Shown: positions 7,034-51,217 of the stretch, piece by piece
How the letters are laid out: the number at the start of each line of letters is the position of its first letter
Numbering within the stretch: the first letter of the stretch is position 1
The notes under the pieces: model-generated
What the model was told of the DNA's origin: nothing
Database searches by the model: none
Seen by the model: only the letters and a program-made list of their open reading frames with translations
Translations under genes and position numbers: made by a program
NCBI RefSeq assembly: GCF_900002575.1
Contig: NZ_LN650648.1
Span: 620,001-684,000, forward strand
From: Romboutsia hominis
GTDB lineage: Bacteria > Bacillota > Clostridia > Peptostreptococcales > Peptostreptococcaceae
DNA length: 64,000 nt
Direction of reading: 5' to 3'

Positions 7034-7723
7034 TTGAGTAAAAAACTTATTTTAATATGTGATGACCAAGAAACAATACATGAAACAATAGGTCAGTATC
7101 TAAAATCTGAGGGAATGGATTATATATCAGCATATGATGGATTAGATGGAGTAGAAAAAGTTAATAGGTATAATCCAGATTTAATACTATTAGATTTAAT
7201 GATGCCTAAAATGTTTGGAACTGATGTATGTAAAGAAATAAGAAAAAATAGTAATGTACCTATAATAATGCTTACAGCCAAGGGGGAAACTGTAGATAGA
7301 ATAATAGGTCTTGAAATAGGTGCAGATGATTATATTACAAAGCCATTTTCACCAAGAGAAGTAGTTACAAGAATAAAAACAGTGTTAAGAAGAAGTGGAA
7401 ATAGTGATATTTCGAAACATAAAAATGTAATAGTACAAGGTAATTTGAAGATTGATATAGAAAGTCATGAAGTTTATATAGATGGTAATTTAGTAAGTAT
7501 AACACCAAAAGAAATGAAAACATTTTATATGTTGGCTTCTAATTCAGGAAAGACTTTAACTAGAGAATATATATTATCAGAAGTATGGGGATATGATTAC
7601 TTTGGAGATACAAGAGTTGTAGACACTCAAATAAAAAGACTTAGAAAAAAAATTAGTCAATTTGAAGTTGATTGGGAAATAAAATCTATTTACGGTGTTG
7701 GATATAAGTTTGAGGTAATTTAA
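7034..7723 (+). CDS. OmpR/PhoB-family response regulator
   Basis: DNA-binding response regulator of about 229 residues. The receiver domain (1-120) has the acidic pair (ICDDQ), the phospho-acceptor Asp in DLILLDLMMP, the Thr in MLTAKG and the Lys in ITKPFSP. The C-terminal winged helix (about 135-229) carries the family's TPKEMKTFYML and RVVDTQIKRLRKKI segments. I favour TTG 7034 as start: the AAGGGA site at 7019-7024 is nine bases upstream, whereas GTG 7025 touches it. The stop codon overlaps the kinase ATG by one base, so the pair is translationally coupled. The stimulus is unknown. Confidence 0.93.
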   Translation: MSKKLILICDDQETIHETIGQYLKSEGMDYISAYDGLDGVEKVNRYNPDLILLDLMMPKMFGTDVCKEIRKNSNVPIIMLTAKGETVDRIIGLEIGADDYITKPFSPREVVTRIKTVLRRSGNSDISKHKNVIVQGNLKIDIESHEVYIDGNLVSITPKEMKTFYMLASNSGKTLTREYILSEVWGYDYFGDTRVVDTQIKRLRKKISQFEVDWEIKSIYGVGYKFEVI

Positions 7724-38901: not shown

Positions 38902-40911
38902 GTGAGAGTGAGAAATGTCTTTAATAATTCCATAGAACAAAAAAGAATAAGTATGGTAATAATACTTTTAATATCAATGATAATATTTAGCTTATACATA
39001 ATGAGGTTAAATTTGCTTGTAAACGAGGGAGTATCATTTGAGCTTACCAGGTCTTATTTTATAAGATTTTTCAATGCCGTTTTGTCAATACTAGGTATTT
39101 TAAGTTGTATTATATCTTATAATAGTAACAAAAAAAAGGAATTGTTTATAGTTGCATTAATGTACACTATATTTTTTATAGATATATTTGTATCAAACCA
39201 AATATATATTAAAAGTGATAAAACATATACATATTTTGCAATAGGAACATCTTTTATAAGGCTTATAGTTATGAGCATAGCAGCTAGTAACCTAGAAAAA
39301 TTAAAAAATATAATTGATGAAAATAAAATAAAGGCTACATCAATAATTGTATTGATAACGTTTTTATTTATATACTTAGAGTATAAATATAATTTATATA
39401 ATAATTTTCTAGATATTAATTTTATAAAAAATTATAACATATCATTATTTATAATATATTTAATTATATCAGGGATATTTTTCATAAAAAGTATAGTTAA
39501 AAAAGATTATATATATGGGGTAATAGGTTTTAGTGCCATAATGTTTTCTATAAAATCTATATATGATTATAGTAGTTTGATAAAACATAATGAAGAAATT
39601 AGCTTAACTGCAACATCGGTAATATATATGGGTTTTATTATATTTATAATAGGTCTATTTATAGAACTTAGTCAAAATATAAAGATGAATAGAAAATTAG
39701 ATGAACAAAGGGACTTATTTTTTAAAATAGTAGAAGAAAATGAGTACAGTAGTATTGTTATATGTGATGAAGAATACAATATAAAATATGCTAATAAAAG
39801 AGCTAGAAATAATAACCTAAAAGCATTTAATATTAAAGAATCAAAAGGAGATAATGATAAACATAACTTAAAGTTTATACATTCAAGCAAATCAGTCCTT
39901 GATAAAGTTGAAAAAAAACTTAGAAAAGATGAAAATTATAGTGAAAGTATATACATACAAGAAAATGATATGATAGTAGATGTTTCTATACAGGAATTTG
40001 AAAAAAATAACACCATATACAAGTTGGTAAGATTAAAGGATGTATCTGAAAAGTACAAAATGGAAAAAGCATTACTAGAGTATGAAAATATAAGACAACA
40101 AGAACAAATTAAAACAGAATTTTTTGCTAATATAAGTCACGAACTAAAGACACCATTAAATATAATATACTCGACTATGCAATTATTAACGGCTAGTACA
40201 CAAAAAAGTGATTTTAAAAATATATACTTAAGGTATAAAGGTTGCTTAGATATAAATTGTAAAAGAATGCTTAGGCTAATAGATAATATAGTAGATGTTA
40301 CTAAGTTTGAAGTAGGATATAAGGTTCCTCAGTATGGAAACTATGATATAGTGGGAATTGTTGAGGGGATAACTACATCTGTTATAAACTATGCTAGTAT
40401 TAAAAATATAGAAGTTATATTTGATACAGATGTAGAGGAACTTGATATAAAATTAGACCCAGACATGATGGAAAGAGTTATGTTAAATCTGCTATCAAAT
40501 GCTATAAAATTTAGTAATAAAGGTGGTACTATCCTAGTAGATATATCAACTAATAAAAAATGGGTTAAAATAAAAGTAAAGGACGAAGGTATCGGTATAC
40601 CTTCTCATATTAAATCAAGGGTATTTGATAGATTTGTTCAATGTGATAAATCTTTGAGAAGAGAAAATGAAGGTAGTGGCATAGGATTGAGTATAGTAAA
40701 ATCTATAATTGAGCTGATGGATGGCAAAATTTACTTAAAAAGCGAGGAAAATATAGGTTCAGAATTTACTATTTTGCTACCTAATAAAGTATTAAAAGAA
40801 TACAATCAAAATAAAGTTATACATAAAGATTATGATATAGATATACAAAGAATACAATTAGAATTTTCAGATATATATGAGTTATATAATGAAAGTTCTT
40901 ATATACTATAA
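38902..40911 (+). CDS. Multi-span membrane sensor histidine kinase, copy 1
   Basis: A 669-residue kinase. The N-terminal part (about 15-260) has eight membrane helices of an MASE-like sensor. A PAS-like region (about 270-385), a HisKA domain with FFANISHELKTPLN (His at about 413) and a HATPase domain (NLLSNAIKFS, VKDEGIGIP, GSGIGLSIVKS) follow. After the kinase core comes a conserved tail ending DIQRIQLEFSDIYELY. GTG 38902 follows GGGGG. It is the tandem paralogue of the kinase at 41.3 kb. No response regulator lies nearby, so its partner is encoded elsewhere. Confidence 0.9.
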   Translation: MRVRNVFNNSIEQKRISMVIILLISMIIFSLYIMRLNLLVNEGVSFELTRSYFIRFFNAVLSILGILSCIISYNSNKKKELFIVALMYTIFFIDIFVSNQIYIKSDKTYTYFAIGTSFIRLIVMSIAASNLEKLKNIIDENKIKATSIIVLITFLFIYLEYKYNLYNNFLDINFIKNYNISLFIIYLIISGIFFIKSIVKKDYIYGVIGFSAIMFSIKSIYDYSSLIKHNEEISLTATSVIYMGFIIFIIGLFIELSQNIKMNRKLDEQRDLFFKIVEENEYSSIVICDEEYNIKYANKRARNNNLKAFNIKESKGDNDKHNLKFIHSSKSVLDKVEKKLRKDENYSESIYIQENDMIVDVSIQEFEKNNTIYKLVRLKDVSEKYKMEKALLEYENIRQQEQIKTEFFANISHELKTPLNIIYSTMQLLTASTQKSDFKNIYLRYKGCLDINCKRMLRLIDNIVDVTKFEVGYKVPQYGNYDIVGIVEGITTSVINYASIKNIEVIFDTDVEELDIKLDPDMMERVMLNLLSNAIKFSNKGGTILVDISTNKKWVKIKVKDEGIGIPSHIKSRVFDRFVQCDKSLRRENEGSGIGLSIVKSIIELMDGKIYLKSEENIGSEFTILLPNKVLKEYNQNKVIHKDYDIDIQRIQLEFSDIYELYNESSYIL

Positions 40912-41328: not shown

Positions 41329-43326
41329 ATGAAAAATTTTAATGTTTTTGAGGATATAAGAGAAGAAAATAAAAATAATATGATAATTATATTTCTAATA
41401 TCTATTATAGTATTTGGGGTTTATATAATAAGATTAGGATCACTTATAGATGGACAATCAAATTTTGAATTCACAAGATCAGAGTTTATAAGGTTTTTCA
41501 ATGCGATTTTAGCTGCATTAGGAGTTTTAAGTTGTTTACTATCATATAGTAGCAATAAGAAAAAAGAGTTATTTTTAATATCACTAATGTATATAGTTTT
41601 TTTATTAGATATATGTATTTCTAATCAATTAAACTATGAAAGTAACAATGTTGAGGTATATCTTGCAATAGGGACAACGTTTATAAGAGTTGTAATCGCA
41701 CTTATATCTATTAGTAACATGGAAAATCTTAAAGGCTTTATTATAGAAAATAAAGTTAAAGCATTTATAATAGTGGTAATTAGCACTTTTATGGTTACGT
41801 ATATAGAGTATAACTACAAAATTTCAGAAAGTATAATGAATATGGAATTTTTCATAGCATATAATATACTACTATTTTTTATATATTTATTTATAGCTGT
41901 TATTTTTTATATAAAAAGTATATCAGAAAAAGAATATATATATGGAGTAATAGCATCTAGTATACTCATGTTTGCAACAAAGTCTATATATTCTATAGCA
42001 AGTTATATATATACGAATGATGAAATTAGATTAACATCAGTTTCAATAACTTATATAGGTTTTATAATGTTTATATTAGGGTTATTTATAGAACTTAGCG
42101 AAAATGTAAAGAAAAACAAAAAACTAGAAGAGCAAAAAGGTCTATTTTTTAGTATAGTAGAAGAAAGTAAACATAATAATATAATAATCTGTGATGAAAA
42201 ATATAACATTAAATATTTAAATAAAAAGGCTATATCAAGTAGGAAGGAAGAGTATTCAGATTATTTATGCCGTGATAGAGAATATAAACTTAATATTGAC
42301 AAGATATTTAAGGGAAAAATATTTTTTTATGAAATAGAAGAATGTTTACAAAAATATGATCATTATAACAAAGAAATATACATAGAAGGTGAAGATATAT
42401 TCATAGATATATCTATACAATTATTTAAAAAAAATGATAAGAGATATAAAGTTGTAATTATTAAGGATGTATCTGAAAAGTATAAAATGCAAACAGCTTT
42501 ATTAGAATATAAAAATATGAAAAAAGAAGAAAGAATGAAAAATGAATTTTTTGCTAATATAAGTCATGAACTTAAAACTCCTTTAAATATAATATATTCA
42601 ACTATGCAACTATTAAATTATAGCTTAGATAAAAATAACTTTAAGGAAATATACTTAAAATATAAAAATAGCTTAGATATAAATTGCAAAAGAATGCTTA
42701 GATTAATAGATAATATAGTGGATATAACTAAATTAGAAGTAGGGTTTAAAGTTCCAGACTTTAGTAACTATGATATAGTAAGACTTGTTGAGGGGATAAG
42801 TACATCTGTTGTAAATTATGCTAAGGTAAAAGAAATTGATGTAATATTTGATACAGATGTAGAAGAGCTTAACATAAAATGTGATCCAGATATGATAGAA
42901 AGAGTCATGTTAAATTTATTATCAAATGCTATAAAATTTAGTGATAATGGTGGAATTATTTTAGTAGATATATCAACTACAAACAAGTGGGTAAGTATCA
43001 AGGTAAAGGATGAGGGGATCGGTATACCTATTGAGATTCAAAATAAGATATTTGATAGATTTGTCCAGGGTGATAAGTCATTAAGAAGAGAAAATGAAGG
43101 TAGTGGAATAGGGTTAAGTATAACAAAATCTATTGTTGAGTTAATGGGTGGTAATATAAACTTAAAAAGTGATGGGGTAAGAGGAACAGAGTTTACTATT
43201 TTATTACCTAATGAAGTTTTAGAAGAGGAAAATAGCAAAAAAATAGTAAATAATGTTTACAAAGTAGATATACAAAAGATACAGCTAGAGTTTTCAGATA
43301 TATATGAACTTTATGATGTAGTATAA
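41329..43326 (+). CDS. Multi-span membrane sensor histidine kinase, copy 2
   Basis: A 665-residue paralogue of the kinase at 38.9 kb with the same order: eight N-terminal membrane helices (about 17-260), a PAS-like region, HisKA (FFANISHELKTPLN, His at about 409), HATPase (NLLSNAIKFS, VKDEGIGIP, GSGIGLSITKS) and the same C-terminal tail (VDIQKIQLEFSDIYELYD). The kinase cores are nearly identical; the PAS-like regions differ most, as expected for duplicates changing their signal. The ATG follows GGGGGA. It is monocistronic, with no regulator beside it. Confidence 0.9.
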   Translation: MKNFNVFEDIREENKNNMIIIFLISIIVFGVYIIRLGSLIDGQSNFEFTRSEFIRFFNAILAALGVLSCLLSYSSNKKKELFLISLMYIVFLLDICISNQLNYESNNVEVYLAIGTTFIRVVIALISISNMENLKGFIIENKVKAFIIVVISTFMVTYIEYNYKISESIMNMEFFIAYNILLFFIYLFIAVIFYIKSISEKEYIYGVIASSILMFATKSIYSIASYIYTNDEIRLTSVSITYIGFIMFILGLFIELSENVKKNKKLEEQKGLFFSIVEESKHNNIIICDEKYNIKYLNKKAISSRKEEYSDYLCRDREYKLNIDKIFKGKIFFYEIEECLQKYDHYNKEIYIEGEDIFIDISIQLFKKNDKRYKVVIIKDVSEKYKMQTALLEYKNMKKEERMKNEFFANISHELKTPLNIIYSTMQLLNYSLDKNNFKEIYLKYKNSLDINCKRMLRLIDNIVDITKLEVGFKVPDFSNYDIVRLVEGISTSVVNYAKVKEIDVIFDTDVEELNIKCDPDMIERVMLNLLSNAIKFSDNGGIILVDISTTNKWVSIKVKDEGIGIPIEIQNKIFDRFVQGDKSLRRENEGSGIGLSITKSIVELMGGNINLKSDGVRGTEFTILLPNEVLEEENSKKIVNNVYKVDIQKIQLEFSDIYELYDVV

Positions 43327-47146: not shown

Positions 47147-47183
47147 AAAAAAGCCGTATCACAATCAAATGATACGGCTTTTT
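47147..47183 (+). terminator. Intrinsic terminator after the ClpP-like gene
   Basis: A 14-bp stem AAAAAAGCCGTATC (47147-47160) with GATACGGCTTTTT (47171-47183). Confidence 0.92.
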
Positions 47184-47314
47184 ATATATTAGTAGATTAT
47201 AAATTACTTAAATTCTCCTAAGGTTATAATATGTCAAAAAAACAATAAAAGTGTAACTGTTTGAAACTATATATCATATTAATATATAAACACATAATTA
47301 AGGGAGGAATATAG

Positions 47315-50300
47315 GTGTATAGTGATAACTTTGACAATATAACTAGAAAATTTAATGTTACAGTATTATCCATTCCGATTGTATATGACTTTTTTGGCGA
47401 CTATGATCCAAATGGAATGATGTATATATTAAGTGAAGATAAAGGGAAAGTGAAAGAGAAGGCTTTGAAAAATTTCAACAATAAAGATCAAAAAGGAGAT
47501 CCACTTCCAATACCTACAGAAGAAGTTCAACCTCTTACAATAAGGGCAAATGTCGGAGATACAGTAAGAATAGAGTTTGAGCACAATGAAAATAGAAGGT
47601 TATCAATTCATATGCAAGGACTTAAGTACAGAAATATAAAATCTGATGGTGCTAATGTAGGTTACAATGAAGACTCTACAGTTGGTCCAGGTGAAAAGAT
47701 AATATATGAATGGTATGCAGATAGAGAAGGAATATTTTACTTTAGTGATATGGGAGATACTAGATTTAGTGAAGATGCAACTAATATACATGGCCTATTT
47801 GGAGCACTTATAGTACAAGCTAAAGGATCTACATGGACAGACCCTGTAGATGGATCTGAACTTCGAAGCGGTATATTTGCTGATATACACAATCCATTTA
47901 AGCCAAGTTTTAGAGAATATGCAGTGTATTTTCATGATGAACTTGAAGTTGTAAATAGATTTGGAAATCAAATAATAGATCCTCATACTAATCAACCAAT
48001 GGCAGTAACTGCTATCAGTTATAGATCAGAGCCAATGGTAAATAGAGCTAATTTAATACCGCTAAAAGATAGAGGTATTAAATGTTGTAATCCTTTTAAT
48101 CCAGAGGATAGCTGCAGCCGTACAGATATAATAGAGCCTAATCATATGCTAGTAGATGGTGAAGACGTTTCTATGAGCTCATGGACTTATGGAGATCCAT
48201 CAACTTTTATACCAAGAGCATATAAAGGAGACCCCTCAAAATTTAGACTTATACATGGAGGTGTATTAGAAACACATGTATTCCATCTTCATACACATCA
48301 ATGGAAGTTAGAACCAGATGATCCGAATTCTACTATAATAGACTCTATATCAGTAAGCCCTCAAGAAAGTCATACTATAGATATATTACACGGAGCAGGA
48401 AGCTTACCTGGGTCTATAGGAGATCACATATGGCATTGTCATTTATACCCTCACTTTCATGAAGGAATGTGGTCTTTATGGAGAGTATTTGATAGATTAG
48501 AAACAGGCAAAGATGTAATACTTGAAAATGGAGAAATCATACGTCCACTATATCCAGATGGAACTTATATAAAAGCTCTAAATCCTTTACCAGATAGAGA
48601 AAAACCACCTAAAAAAGATTTAGACCATCCAGGGTATCCAGGGTTTATAAATGGAGTGTTTAAAGAAAGGGCAAAACAGCCGCCTTTAGGAATACTTAAT
48701 CAAAACGGTCAAAATAAAATGTGCCCAACTGATATTGAAAGAGCAAACCTTTCGAAGGATGTTACTAGAGGAGCTTTATACACTCAACCTTGTCCAGATA
48801 CAAGTAAATGCTACTTTAAAGAGCCAGATGCTATTTTTGAACTATTTGCACTACAAGCAAAATTGATATATAACAATGCAGGGTGGAATGATCCATATGG
48901 AAGATTTTATGTTATGAAAGAGCAAATAGAAGAATATACAGGACATAAGATGACAGATGAAAATAAAGAAAAGTTAGCTAAAATGTATGTAGCTGGAATA
49001 GAAAATGAAGAGATTAATGTAGAGCCATTAGTTATAAGAGCTAATGAGGGTGATTGTATAGAAGTTAGACTTACTAATTTCTTACCAGAAACATTACCGA
49101 AAACAGAATTTCAATTAGAAACTTTAACTGATAATGTAGGCTTTCATATACATTTAGTTAAGTTTGATGTTATAGCTTCAGATGGTGGTGCAAATGGATA
49201 TAATAATATGGCTTCTGTTTTTTATGGAGAAACTATAGTAGAAAGATATTATGCTAATGAAGAATTAAATGCTTGTTTCTTCCACGACCATCTTAATCCA
49301 AATTCACATCAACAACATGGAGTGTTTGGAAGTCTTATAATAGAACCTAAAGGATCCACATACCATGATCCGAAAACAGGTAATCCAATAAAATATGGGA
49401 CAAAAGCAGTAATAAAAACACCTTCAGGTAGAACTTTCAGGGAGTTTGGATTATTTGTTCATGACTTTGCATTACTATTTGATAAAGATAAAAATCCATT
49501 AAATCCACCGCCATTTTCAGGGTCACATGATGATCCAGGTGTTATGGGCATAAATTATAAATGCGAACCCTTAAGAGAAAGATTAAATGGTAATGACCCA
49601 AATCATGTATTTAATGATCCAGCTTATGTATTTAGTTCTAACGTACATGGTGACCCAGTGACACCATTACTAGAAACATATCCAGGAGATGAAATTGTAA
49701 TAAGATTATTAGATGGAGCACAAGAAGAGCAACATGCATTTAATATAAATGGAATGAAGTGGAGAAAAGAAATAACAGATAAAAAATCACCATTAGTTCA
49801 ATCTCAAACATTAGGAATATCAGAAGCATTTAATATAAAAATAACAGATGACTATAAAGCAGGTGATTATATTTATTACTTTGGAGGACAAGATGATTTC
49901 TGGTTAGGTTTATGGGGAATAATAAGAGTTTATAAAGATAAAACTGAAAAATTATTGCCTATAGGTAATAATAATAATTGTATAAATAATATGGATACAA
50001 TGAAAAATAAAAATATAATCACTAGAGAGTTTCATATAGCAGCCATCCAAAAAGATATACTATATAATAATTTTAAAGATCATGATCCAGATGGATTGTT
50101 ATTTGTGCCATATGAACACAAAGATGCTATAATTAATGGAACGATGGAACCAATTCCATTAATATTAAGAGCAAATAAAGGTGAATATATAAAAGTAACT
50201 TTAACTAATTTATTCACTAAACCAATACCATACCAAGATTTTCCAGGAGTACCAGTGGATAAAGAAATTAAGCCGTCTATGAGGGTAGGAATTAGCCCAC

Positions 50301-51121
50301 AATTTTTAAAATTTGATCCAATAAATAGTAGTGGTATAAATATAGGATATAACGATGTAGATCAAACTGTAGGACCTGGAGAAAGTATAGAATATTTATG
50401 GTACGCAGATGAAGAATATGGAACTTGCTTATTATCATCATTTACAGATATAAGAAATCATAGATATCATGGTTTATTTGGAGCAATAATAATAGAGCCA
50501 GAAGGATCACAAATACGTAGTTCTAGCAATAATGGATATAAAAACAATTATAAAGAACAAGTAACAGTATATGTAGATGGAAATGAACAATTTAGAGAGT
50601 TTGTAATGTTTATGCACAATGGAATAAGACTTTTGGATGCACATGGTAATTTAATAAAAACTAATCAAGTAAATGAAGATGGTGAAGTACCTGAACCAGT
50701 AGATTTTGAAGATAGAGGTGAAAAAGGATTTAATTACAGATCAGAAAGATTTTTTAATAGATTAAAATATAATCCTAACTATGATATATCAAAAATATTT
50801 AGCTCTAAAGTTCATGGAGATCCAGCTACACCAATATTTGAAGCTTCACCAGGAGAAAAAGTTATAATAAGACTTCTAATGCCAGCCGATAAGCCTAGAA
50901 ATACTTGCTTTGTACTTCATGGACATGAATGGAAAGCCCAACCAGAAGACCCATTTACAAGAATCATATCAGCTCAAGGAGCTATGAATATAGGAAATGT
51001 GTTTAATATAGAATTACTAAATGGAGCATCCATGATACCTGGGGACTATTTATATAGATCTGGGCTTATAAGATGGGATATAGAATCAGGTATGTGGGGT
51101 ATATTTAGAATTAATAATTAA
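47315..51121 (+). CDS. Giant multicopper oxidase, MnxG-like
   Basis: A 1268-residue multicopper oxidase made of three repeated units, i.e. about six cupredoxin domains. Each unit opens with a REF/RKF-type strand, YDPNG/DHDPDG and a RAN(V/E/K)GD motif, and contains REYAVYFHDE/REFGLFVHDF/REFVMFMHNG. Copper ligands cluster in domains 2 and 3: HVFHLH at residues 321-326, HCHLYPHFHEGM at 374-385 (the HCHx3Hx4M signature), HIH at 611-613 and HDH at 657-659. Domains 4-6 keep few ligands. There is no signal peptide. Length and motifs match Bacillus MnxG, the spore Mn(II) oxidase. GTG 47315 follows GGGAGGA. No mnxA-F genes are present. Confidence 0.88.
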   Translation: MYSDNFDNITRKFNVTVLSIPIVYDFFGDYDPNGMMYILSEDKGKVKEKALKNFNNKDQKGDPLPIPTEEVQPLTIRANVGDTVRIEFEHNENRRLSIHMQGLKYRNIKSDGANVGYNEDSTVGPGEKIIYEWYADREGIFYFSDMGDTRFSEDATNIHGLFGALIVQAKGSTWTDPVDGSELRSGIFADIHNPFKPSFREYAVYFHDELEVVNRFGNQIIDPHTNQPMAVTAISYRSEPMVNRANLIPLKDRGIKCCNPFNPEDSCSRTDIIEPNHMLVDGEDVSMSSWTYGDPSTFIPRAYKGDPSKFRLIHGGVLETHVFHLHTHQWKLEPDDPNSTIIDSISVSPQESHTIDILHGAGSLPGSIGDHIWHCHLYPHFHEGMWSLWRVFDRLETGKDVILENGEIIRPLYPDGTYIKALNPLPDREKPPKKDLDHPGYPGFINGVFKERAKQPPLGILNQNGQNKMCPTDIERANLSKDVTRGALYTQPCPDTSKCYFKEPDAIFELFALQAKLIYNNAGWNDPYGRFYVMKEQIEEYTGHKMTDENKEKLAKMYVAGIENEEINVEPLVIRANEGDCIEVRLTNFLPETLPKTEFQLETLTDNVGFHIHLVKFDVIASDGGANGYNNMASVFYGETIVERYYANEELNACFFHDHLNPNSHQQHGVFGSLIIEPKGSTYHDPKTGNPIKYGTKAVIKTPSGRTFREFGLFVHDFALLFDKDKNPLNPPPFSGSHDDPGVMGINYKCEPLRERLNGNDPNHVFNDPAYVFSSNVHGDPVTPLLETYPGDEIVIRLLDGAQEEQHAFNINGMKWRKEITDKKSPLVQSQTLGISEAFNIKITDDYKAGDYIYYFGGQDDFWLGLWGIIRVYKDKTEKLLPIGNNNNCINNMDTMKNKNIITREFHIAAIQKDILYNNFKDHDPDGLLFVPYEHKDAIINGTMEPIPLILRANKGEYIKVTLTNLFTKPIPYQDFPGVPVDKEIKPSMRVGISPQFLKFDPINSSGINIGYNDVDQTVGPGESIEYLWYADEEYGTCLLSSFTDIRNHRYHGLFGAIIIEPEGSQIRSSSNNGYKNNYKEQVTVYVDGNEQFREFVMFMHNGIRLLDAHGNLIKTNQVNEDGEVPEPVDFEDRGEKGFNYRSERFFNRLKYNPNYDISKIFSSKVHGDPATPIFEASPGEKVIIRLLMPADKPRNTCFVLHGHEWKAQPEDPFTRIISAQGAMNIGNVFNIELLNGASMIPGDYLYRSGLIRWDIESGMWGIFRINN

Positions 51122-51160: not shown

Positions 51161-51217
51161 AAATTAAATTAAAAAGCTATATAAACTTAAAGTTTATATA
51201 GCTTTTTAATTTAATTT
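51161..51217. terminator. Bidirectional terminator after the multicopper oxidase gene
   Basis: A very long stem with AAAAAGCTATATAAACTT (51171-51188) and its complement (51190-51207), extended by A/T pairs on both sides. It serves the oxidase gene and the convergent deoD. Confidence 0.9.

Follow-up and report, generated by a model that had tools for sequence, protein, structure and literature searches.

What would a presumed strict anaerobe do with an enzyme predicted to use O2? The question is raised by a gene in a stretch of 64,000 nucleotides (nt) of the Romboutsia hominis genome (assembly GCF_900002575.1, contig NZ_LN650648.1, positions 620,001 to 684,000), hereafter the window, in which an earlier note made from the sequence alone had recognized a MnxG-like multicopper oxidase of six domains and 1268 residues. 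We propose that this MnxG-type oxidase is a sigma-K-controlled, late mother-cell product placed on the spore surface, where it would use O2 once the spores meet air. On the sequence comparisons described here this reading is given a probability of roughly 0.6. The gene itself is located as follows (coordinates are those of the window).

47315 to 51121, + strand: coding sequence of the MnxG-like six-cupredoxin multicopper oxidase, 1268 residues, GTG start (open reading frame list, Pfam, phmmer, alignment)

The open reading frame (ORF) has exactly these boundaries and is single and intact, with 1268 codons. Pfam detects Cu-oxidase_3 (5.6e-20, three stretches) and Cu-oxidase_2 (6.8e-12, two stretches), and in a phmmer search residues 10-1267 align to residues 2-1204 of the MnxG of Protein Data Bank (PDB) entry 9bxa at 1026.7 bits. 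Identity over the whole length is approximately 43% both to the MnxG of Priestia and to that of Bacillus sp. PL-12 (PDB 9bxa). As judged by these alignments, the protein is a MnxG-type six-cupredoxin multicopper oxidase and a whole-length homologue of Bacillus MnxG, in agreement with the earlier note. An ordinary laccase of the CotA type, with two or three domains, was considered and rejected, since two-domain laccases match in short stretches only, with at most 43.6 bits vs. 1026.7 for MnxG. The MnxG equivalog model of NCBIfam, NF041487, gives 333.8 bits, and its curated cut-off of 3100 is thus not reached. The N-terminus (MYSDNFDNITRKF...), read by eye without a prediction program, has no hydrophobic signal segment, in line with the earlier note.

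The oxidase is no isolated oddity, although it had been treated as an isolated case. A pattern scan of 84,980 species genomes yielded 134 stretches encoding such proteins (the locus counts below refer to the best 80 of the 134), which form a wide clade across many Clostridia, and two members were listed as MnxG-like already in 2013, in the accessible part of PMC3600357. The complete copper motifs, previously assigned to domains 2 and 3, are placed as follows.

48275 to 48298, + strand: HxxHxH(xH), residues 321-328, domain 2; by homology the type 1 (T1) copper His and two trinuclear-site His (67/67 clostridial and 4/4 Bacillales rows; 9bxa alignment)
48434 to 48469, + strand: HCHxxxHxxxxM, residues 374-385, domain 2; T1 Cys, His and Met and two trinuclear-site His (row alignment)
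49145 to 49153, + strand: HIH, residues 611-613, domain 3, trinuclear site (row alignment; 9bxa alignment)
49283 to 49291, + strand: HDH, residues 657-659, domain 3, trinuclear site (row alignment; 9bxa alignment)

From the known multicopper oxidase motifs, the predicted T1 ligands are H321, C375, H380 and M385, and the predicted trinuclear ligands are H324, H326, H374, H376, H611, H613, H657 and H659. Their conservation was followed in an alignment of ORFs of at least 1140 residues, comprising 67 clostridial rows (the window and 66 of the 80 loci) and four Bacillales rows. It omits 14 split, short or cut loci (L045, L047, L053, L059, L062, L065, L067, L069, L071, L078, L079, L080, L082 and L083) as well as L001 and L003, and L002 was kept though it is from the same genome as L007 (Faecalimicrobium dakarense). 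H321, H324, H326, H328, C375, H376, H380, M385, H611, H613, H657 and H659 are kept in all 67 clostridial rows and H374 in 66 of them, and the four Bacillales rows match at every one of these positions. PDB 9bxa is an H340A mutant of the Mnx complex, position 340 being the second T1 histidine; the equivalent of that position in R. hominis is H380, a histidine in all 71 rows. Domain 1 has one conserved histidine (H99) at the corresponding place but lacks the second His pair. A trinuclear site between domains 2 and 3 has already been described for bacterial six-domain oxidases (PMC3600357, in its accessible part).

An AlphaFold model of residues 8-875 (domains 1-4) has a mean predicted local distance difference test (pLDDT) score of 65.8, with values below 50 over much of both domain-2 copper motifs. 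Its best match is 9bxa (Z score 34.9, 748 residues aligned, 44% identity), ranked first by both Foldseek and VIA, and ceruloplasmin and factors V and VIII are among the next-best fold matches (Z scores about 19-20).

According to the record titles, the carriers are nearly all Clostridia, many of them from gut samples, and include Lachnospiraceae, Ruminococcus, Clostridium neonatale, C. cuniculi, C. methylpentosum and Terrisporobacter. Geomicrobium halophilum (44%) and one record labelled Methanosarcina are the exceptions, and for the contigs of metagenome-assembled genomes (MAGs) among the carriers misbinning is possible. The gene is sparse: it was found in 2 of 61 genomes in a search of relatives and in 2 of 391 genomes of the class, R. 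hominis being counted in both. Two trees were made, one with the window and 25 clostridial loci and another, for the approximately unbiased (AU) test, with the window and 11 (L118 is in neither); the clostridial proteins form one group (100/100) and the Bacillales MnxG proteins another (100/100). Copies from Clostridiaceae and Peptostreptococcaceae are mixed (L004-L007 and the window), with a Terrisporobacter MAG (L005) beside C. cuniculi (L006) at 100/100, which may point to transfer between families or to misbinning; an older transfer of the oxidase gene is thus possible. The record labelled Methanosarcina sp. Ant1 (L059) has the oxidase gene in two frames on a 13-kb contig, and neither SpoIVA nor DUF2935 was found in its assembly; it is possibly a clostridial contaminant.

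The evidence on timing comes from the DNA upstream of the gene.

47253 to 47284, + strand: sigma-K-like promoter, GTAAC (AC being the -35 element), 17 nt, CATATTAATA (-10 element, one mismatch to CATANNNT) (upstream sequence, five-species comparison)

In the window and four close relatives GTAAC is invariant (5/5 species), and the -10 block CATAT is kept in four of the five, with TAATAT in C. neonatale. Across the family, AC-N15-18-CATANNNT occurs within 150 nt upstream of 38 of 77 heads of oxidase transcription units vs. 22 of 509 other genes of the same loci (Fisher 4.5e-23), and CATANNNTA alone at 47/77 vs. 43/509. The heads are those of the window and 76 of the 80 loci (L005, L009, L031 and L067 were dropped for lack of upstream DNA or of a usable start), L059 and Geomicrobium (L074), where the oxidase gene is not first in its operon, included; the 509 are those others whose upstream DNA is free. 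Since a script assigned the start codons, in part wrongly, the family count is probably too low. When heads with CATANNNTA and sufficient upstream DNA are considered, AC stands at the -35 place in 30/44, vs. 9/36 in the background. Sigma-A-like sites are rarer at the heads than at other genes (3/77 vs. 59/509), and a plain sigma-70 scan of the region remained at chance level (34 found vs. 31.3 expected). The sigma-K promoters of C. difficile have AC at -35 and, at sigK P2, CATATAAT at -10, while sigma-E promoters have ATA at -35 (PMC3789822, accessible part). By these elements, the AC at -35 in the oxidase-unit promoters argues for the sigma-K and not the sigma-E form.

The R. hominis genome encodes sigma-K (312.9 bits vs. 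a cut-off of 298.65) and SpoIVA. Haem-copper oxidase (PF00115) was not found in it; cytochrome bd was not searched for. Taken together, the absent haem-copper oxidase and the two sporulation genes fit an anaerobic spore former. SpoIVA was detected in 72 of the 80 carrier genomes compared to 278 of 391 class genomes (Fisher 1.4e-4, own genome removed from the background), and it is present in all nine carriers whose records give both species and strain (C. neonatale, C. cuniculi, F. dakarense, Diplocloster modestus, Velocimicrobium porci, Acetivibrio ethanolgignens, C. methylpentosum, Faecalicatena contorta and Geomicrobium halophilum).

A second gene recurs near the oxidase, and several of its distant copies have the same promoter type. 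Within six genes of the oxidase, 56 of the 80 loci have a gene for a DUF2935 protein (PF11155; membership Pfam-confirmed for two neighbours), in 47 of the 56 at position -1 and on the same strand; the 56 include L060 and one fragment of 83 residues (L082). When the 18 most recurrent neighbour clusters were read by eye, DUF2935 was the sole strongly recurrent one, the next being an ABC transporter (15/80). Of the 24 remaining carriers, 17 encode DUF2935 elsewhere in the genome, as does R. hominis.

G000:C1:2491335-2492222, - strand: distant DUF2935 gene of the R. hominis genome (genome search)

DUF2935 is thereby found in 73 of 80 carriers. In the class it occurs in 78 of 391 genomes, or in 77/390 when R. 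hominis is taken out (Fisher 8.8e-35 for the latter), the 73 being pooled from different searches and the two samples differing in family make-up; with the background cut to the number of SpoIVA-bearing genomes the Fisher value is 1.7e-25. A strict sigma-K-type site precedes 10 of 19 distant DUF2935 genes (one with almost no upstream DNA, two from one genome), among them the R. hominis gene with a perfect AC-N17-CATATTAT. The recurrence of such promoter sites across many genera, and also at the unlinked DUF2935 gene of R. hominis, suggests late mother-cell timing for the oxidase.

The DUF2935 protein is helical, with E22-H23, H162, E166, E201-H202, H283, E287 and H290 invariant in 24 sequences. 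Its model (pLDDT 89.1) matches the 'conserved metalloprotein' 3d19 of B. cereus with template modelling scores of 0.72 (query) and 0.84 (target); Dps and bacterioferritin appear in the list of fold matches without significance (E about 0.6 and above). A literature search on DUF2935 gave one unrelated paper and no link to a multicopper oxidase. Some loci have unusual forms of the gene. In L043, at about 1082-1200, the start and the end of DUF2935 seem fused upstream of the oxidase, as if the middle had been deleted (24 aligned residues for the start piece; the end was read by eye). The DUF2935 protein of L036 (8410-9960, +) carries a long repeat tail with Cys residues (ETRNTGCSRETCE...) and is perhaps of the coat or exosporium kind, and that of L022 (8892-9902) has a Cys/Asn/Thr-rich insert.

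How could these parts work together? In late sporulation the mother cell would produce the oxidase under the control of sigma-K, and the protein would become part of the surface layers of the spore; a signal peptide would be unnecessary for this, as for coat proteins generally. Single electrons would enter at the T1 copper of domain 2. Their donor would be small, the best candidates being a metal ion (Mn(II) or, with lower probability, Fe(II)) and a coat component. The electrons would then reach the trinuclear site of domains 2 and 3 and reduce O2 to water there. The reaction would proceed in or on the dormant spore after its shedding into air, so that the anaerobic cell would never need to breathe O2. 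Co-produced, the helical DUF2935 metalloprotein would be a likely partner that replaces the MnxE and MnxF of Bacillus. The scheme builds on what the sequences show, namely the family, its ligands and distribution, the promoter-like sites, the neighbouring genes and the failure to find MnxE/F; actual sigma-K control, the spore location, the reduction of O2, the substrate and a physical partnership with DUF2935 are inferred. Its firmest parts are the copper chemistry, which follows from homology, and the timing. The earlier note had seen a paradox in an O2 enzyme in a strict anaerobe; this contradiction would largely vanish if the late mother cell makes the protein for the spore, which the promoter sequences suggest. 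Among the roles which that note proposed, modification of the spore coat was well aimed. More tentatively, and with clearly less confidence, we suggest that oxidase and DUF2935 form a two-component spore-surface system of gut clostridia, sigma-K-made and air-activated, which would fix Mn or Fe on the spore or draw O2 from it. If true, such a system would depend on O2 and serve strict anaerobes at their transmission stage alone, and DUF2935 would gain its first role.

Several observations weigh against the proposed spore-surface oxidase. The strict sigma-K-type motif is missing upstream of 39 of the 77 heads, the window's own promoter (AC-N17-CATATTAA) deviates from the strict pattern by one mismatch at -10, and the heads are related by descent, so that the Fisher values overstate their independence. 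SpoIVA is in any case widespread in the class, and eight of the 80 carriers are without it (seven MAG or bin records of unknown completeness and the one labelled Methanosarcina). Seven of the 80 carrier genomes have no DUF2935 match, and the presence of DUF2935 in many class genomes without a detected oxidase implies that it has other uses too. A tree that unites the clostridial proteins with MnxG of Bacillales is rejected, though mildly (p-AU 0.035; long branches are present). The titles and abstracts of the literature yielded no expression or proteome data on the oxidase family; in the main text of the sporulation transcriptome of C. perfringens SM101 (PMC4433262) 'oxidase', 'copper' and 'manganese' do not occur, the presence of the gene in SM101 not having been checked. 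Finally, MnxE and MnxF were not found in the R. hominis genome with Priestia queries. The earlier claim that mnxA-F are absent therefore holds for MnxE and MnxF; mnxA-D were not searched for.

The search for MnxE and MnxF was extended to 12 other clostridial genomes, with no MnxF in any of them and MnxE in one, a marginal match in C. neonatale (genome of L004, G440:C16:678499-678702; E 0.0038, 31%) that may be due to chance. In Geomicrobium, the positive control, the two queries gave 4.4e-36 and 9.4e-25 directly upstream of the oxidase gene. The Priestia genes are called MnxE and MnxF by their position before the oxidase, the records saying hypothetical; their naming also leans on what we take to be the order of the Bacillus mnx operon. 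On a Priestia plasmid (L084) the MnxE-like gene is preceded, at a distance of 64 nt, by a sigma-K-like site (about 7296-7323; AC, then CATAAAAT), and mnxEFG may thus have its own spore promoter there.

The alternative closest to the known system is that the protein is a true Mn(II) oxidase which coats the spores with Mn oxide like Bacillus MnxG, another protein replacing MnxE/F. This is possible but, in our opinion, doubtful. The whole-length identity to the Priestia and PL-12 proteins, the identical copper ligands and the spore-type promoter sites all favour it. In Bacillus, spores and not vegetative cells oxidize Mn with MnxG, and mnxEFG is stated to be the minimum for activity (PMC5622069, accessible part); the lack of MnxE/F in R. 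hominis is therefore the main reason not to call the enzyme a Mn oxidase. Its clade separate from Bacillales MnxG and the NF041487 score far under the cut-off speak against the name as well.

Rather unlikely is an O2-scavenging or detoxifying shield, in which the oxidase and DUF2935 would consume O2, peroxide or free copper or iron at the spore surface, with no radicals, as a counterpart of the C. difficile spore Mn catalases CotCB and CotD. The anaerobe setting, the invariant His and Glu residues of DUF2935, which could hold metals, and the production of coat catalases under sigma-K in C. difficile (PMC3789822, accessible part) are in line with it; there is, however, no evident donor to sustain an O2 sink in a dormant spore.

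CotA in Bacillus is thought to cross-link coat proteins or to make pigment, and a laccase-like coat maturation of this kind, which the spore-type promoter sites and multicopper oxidase chemistry would permit, is unlikely here: fold and length are MnxG-like and not laccase-like, and a step at the time of sporulation would need O2 within the anaerobic gut. A role apart from spores, in the handling of copper or iron in the cytoplasm of vegetative cells, agrees with the lack of a visible signal peptide and of evident coat genes adjoining the oxidase in the window, but is very unlikely, as the 18 neighbour clusters include no evident copper gene (by which a copper-handling operon was also rejected) and DUF2935 alone is frequent in them, a P-type ATPase occurs in just four loci (its ion was not tested) and sigma-A-like sites are rare at the heads.

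The surroundings of the gene in the window contain the following features.

47302 to 47307, + strand: ribosome-binding site GGGAGG (read from the upstream sequence)
47148 to 47183, no strand assigned: terminator-like hairpin between the clpP-family gene (upstream) and the oxidase gene (listed on the - strand only)
51168 to 51210, no strand assigned: terminator-like hairpin downstream of the oxidase gene (listed on both strands)

The downstream hairpin separates the oxidase gene from a convergent purine-nucleoside phosphorylase gene and, given the two flanking hairpins, the oxidase gene seems to stand alone. It is present in one copy only in the genome (3.04 Mb, single contig). At third codon positions its GC content is 0.153, and 17 other genes of the window have similar values (0.136-0.191); this gives no sign of a recent foreign origin, which was rejected on this basis. 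The window also has a tandem pair of large sensor histidine kinases (38902-40911 and 41329-43326), the second of which scores 382.1 bits with the MASE3_PAS_HK model, below the cut-off of 560.

New in this analysis are the sigma-K-type promoters at the oxidase units, the DUF2935 association and the failure to find MnxE/F. As two clostridial copies were listed in 2013, the existence of MnxG-like proteins in Clostridia is not new. In titles and abstracts (most subscription papers were not covered) the oxidase family of anaerobes was not linked to sporulation, sigma-K or DUF2935, and neither a spore-proteome nor a gut-MnxG paper on the family was found. It is a question of current interest how strict gut anaerobes get through air from one host to the next, and except for C. 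difficile little is known of the surfaces of their spores. The oxidase, which is conserved, probably under sporulation control and recurrently accompanied by a metal protein, offers a testable answer to part of this question and gives DUF2935 its first functional context. A relative of MnxG that is possibly independent of MnxE/F would also help with the problem of manganese oxidation by MnxG.

Among known systems, the clostridial MnxG-like proteins in the 2013 tree of six-domain proteins, 'MnxG' of C. perfringens D JGS1721 (1297 residues) and CLOSTMETH03020 of C. methylpentosum (1231 residues), are of the same kind as the R. hominis oxidase, and the accessible part of that paper discusses neither promoter, partner nor role (PMC3600357). 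C. methylpentosum DSM 5476 is also in our locus set (L054). The NF041487 model, which we take to describe the Pseudomonas type of MnxG, has 1894 positions, and the R. hominis oxidase is much shorter. The B. cereus DUF2935 metalloproteins 3d19 and 3dby share the fold of the partner protein, their PDB titles giving no function. Ceruloplasmin and factors V and VIII have the cupredoxin architecture in common with the oxidase; in chordate six-domain proteins, however, the trinuclear site lies between domains 1 and 6 (PMC3600357, accessible part), whereas the R. hominis protein has its complete ligand set in domains 2 and 3. The MnxG proteins of Bacillus sp. PL-12/SG-1 and Priestia are alike in their six cupredoxin domains, whole-length alignment, spore-former context and identical T1 and trinuclear ligands in domains 2 and 3 (the engineered H340A of 9bxa apart). 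The clostridial oxidases differ from them in forming a separate clade in anaerobic hosts, and while Bacillus MnxG is encoded in the mnx operon, the gene in Clostridia stands singly or in a DUF2935-oxidase pair, in R. hominis without MnxE and MnxF.

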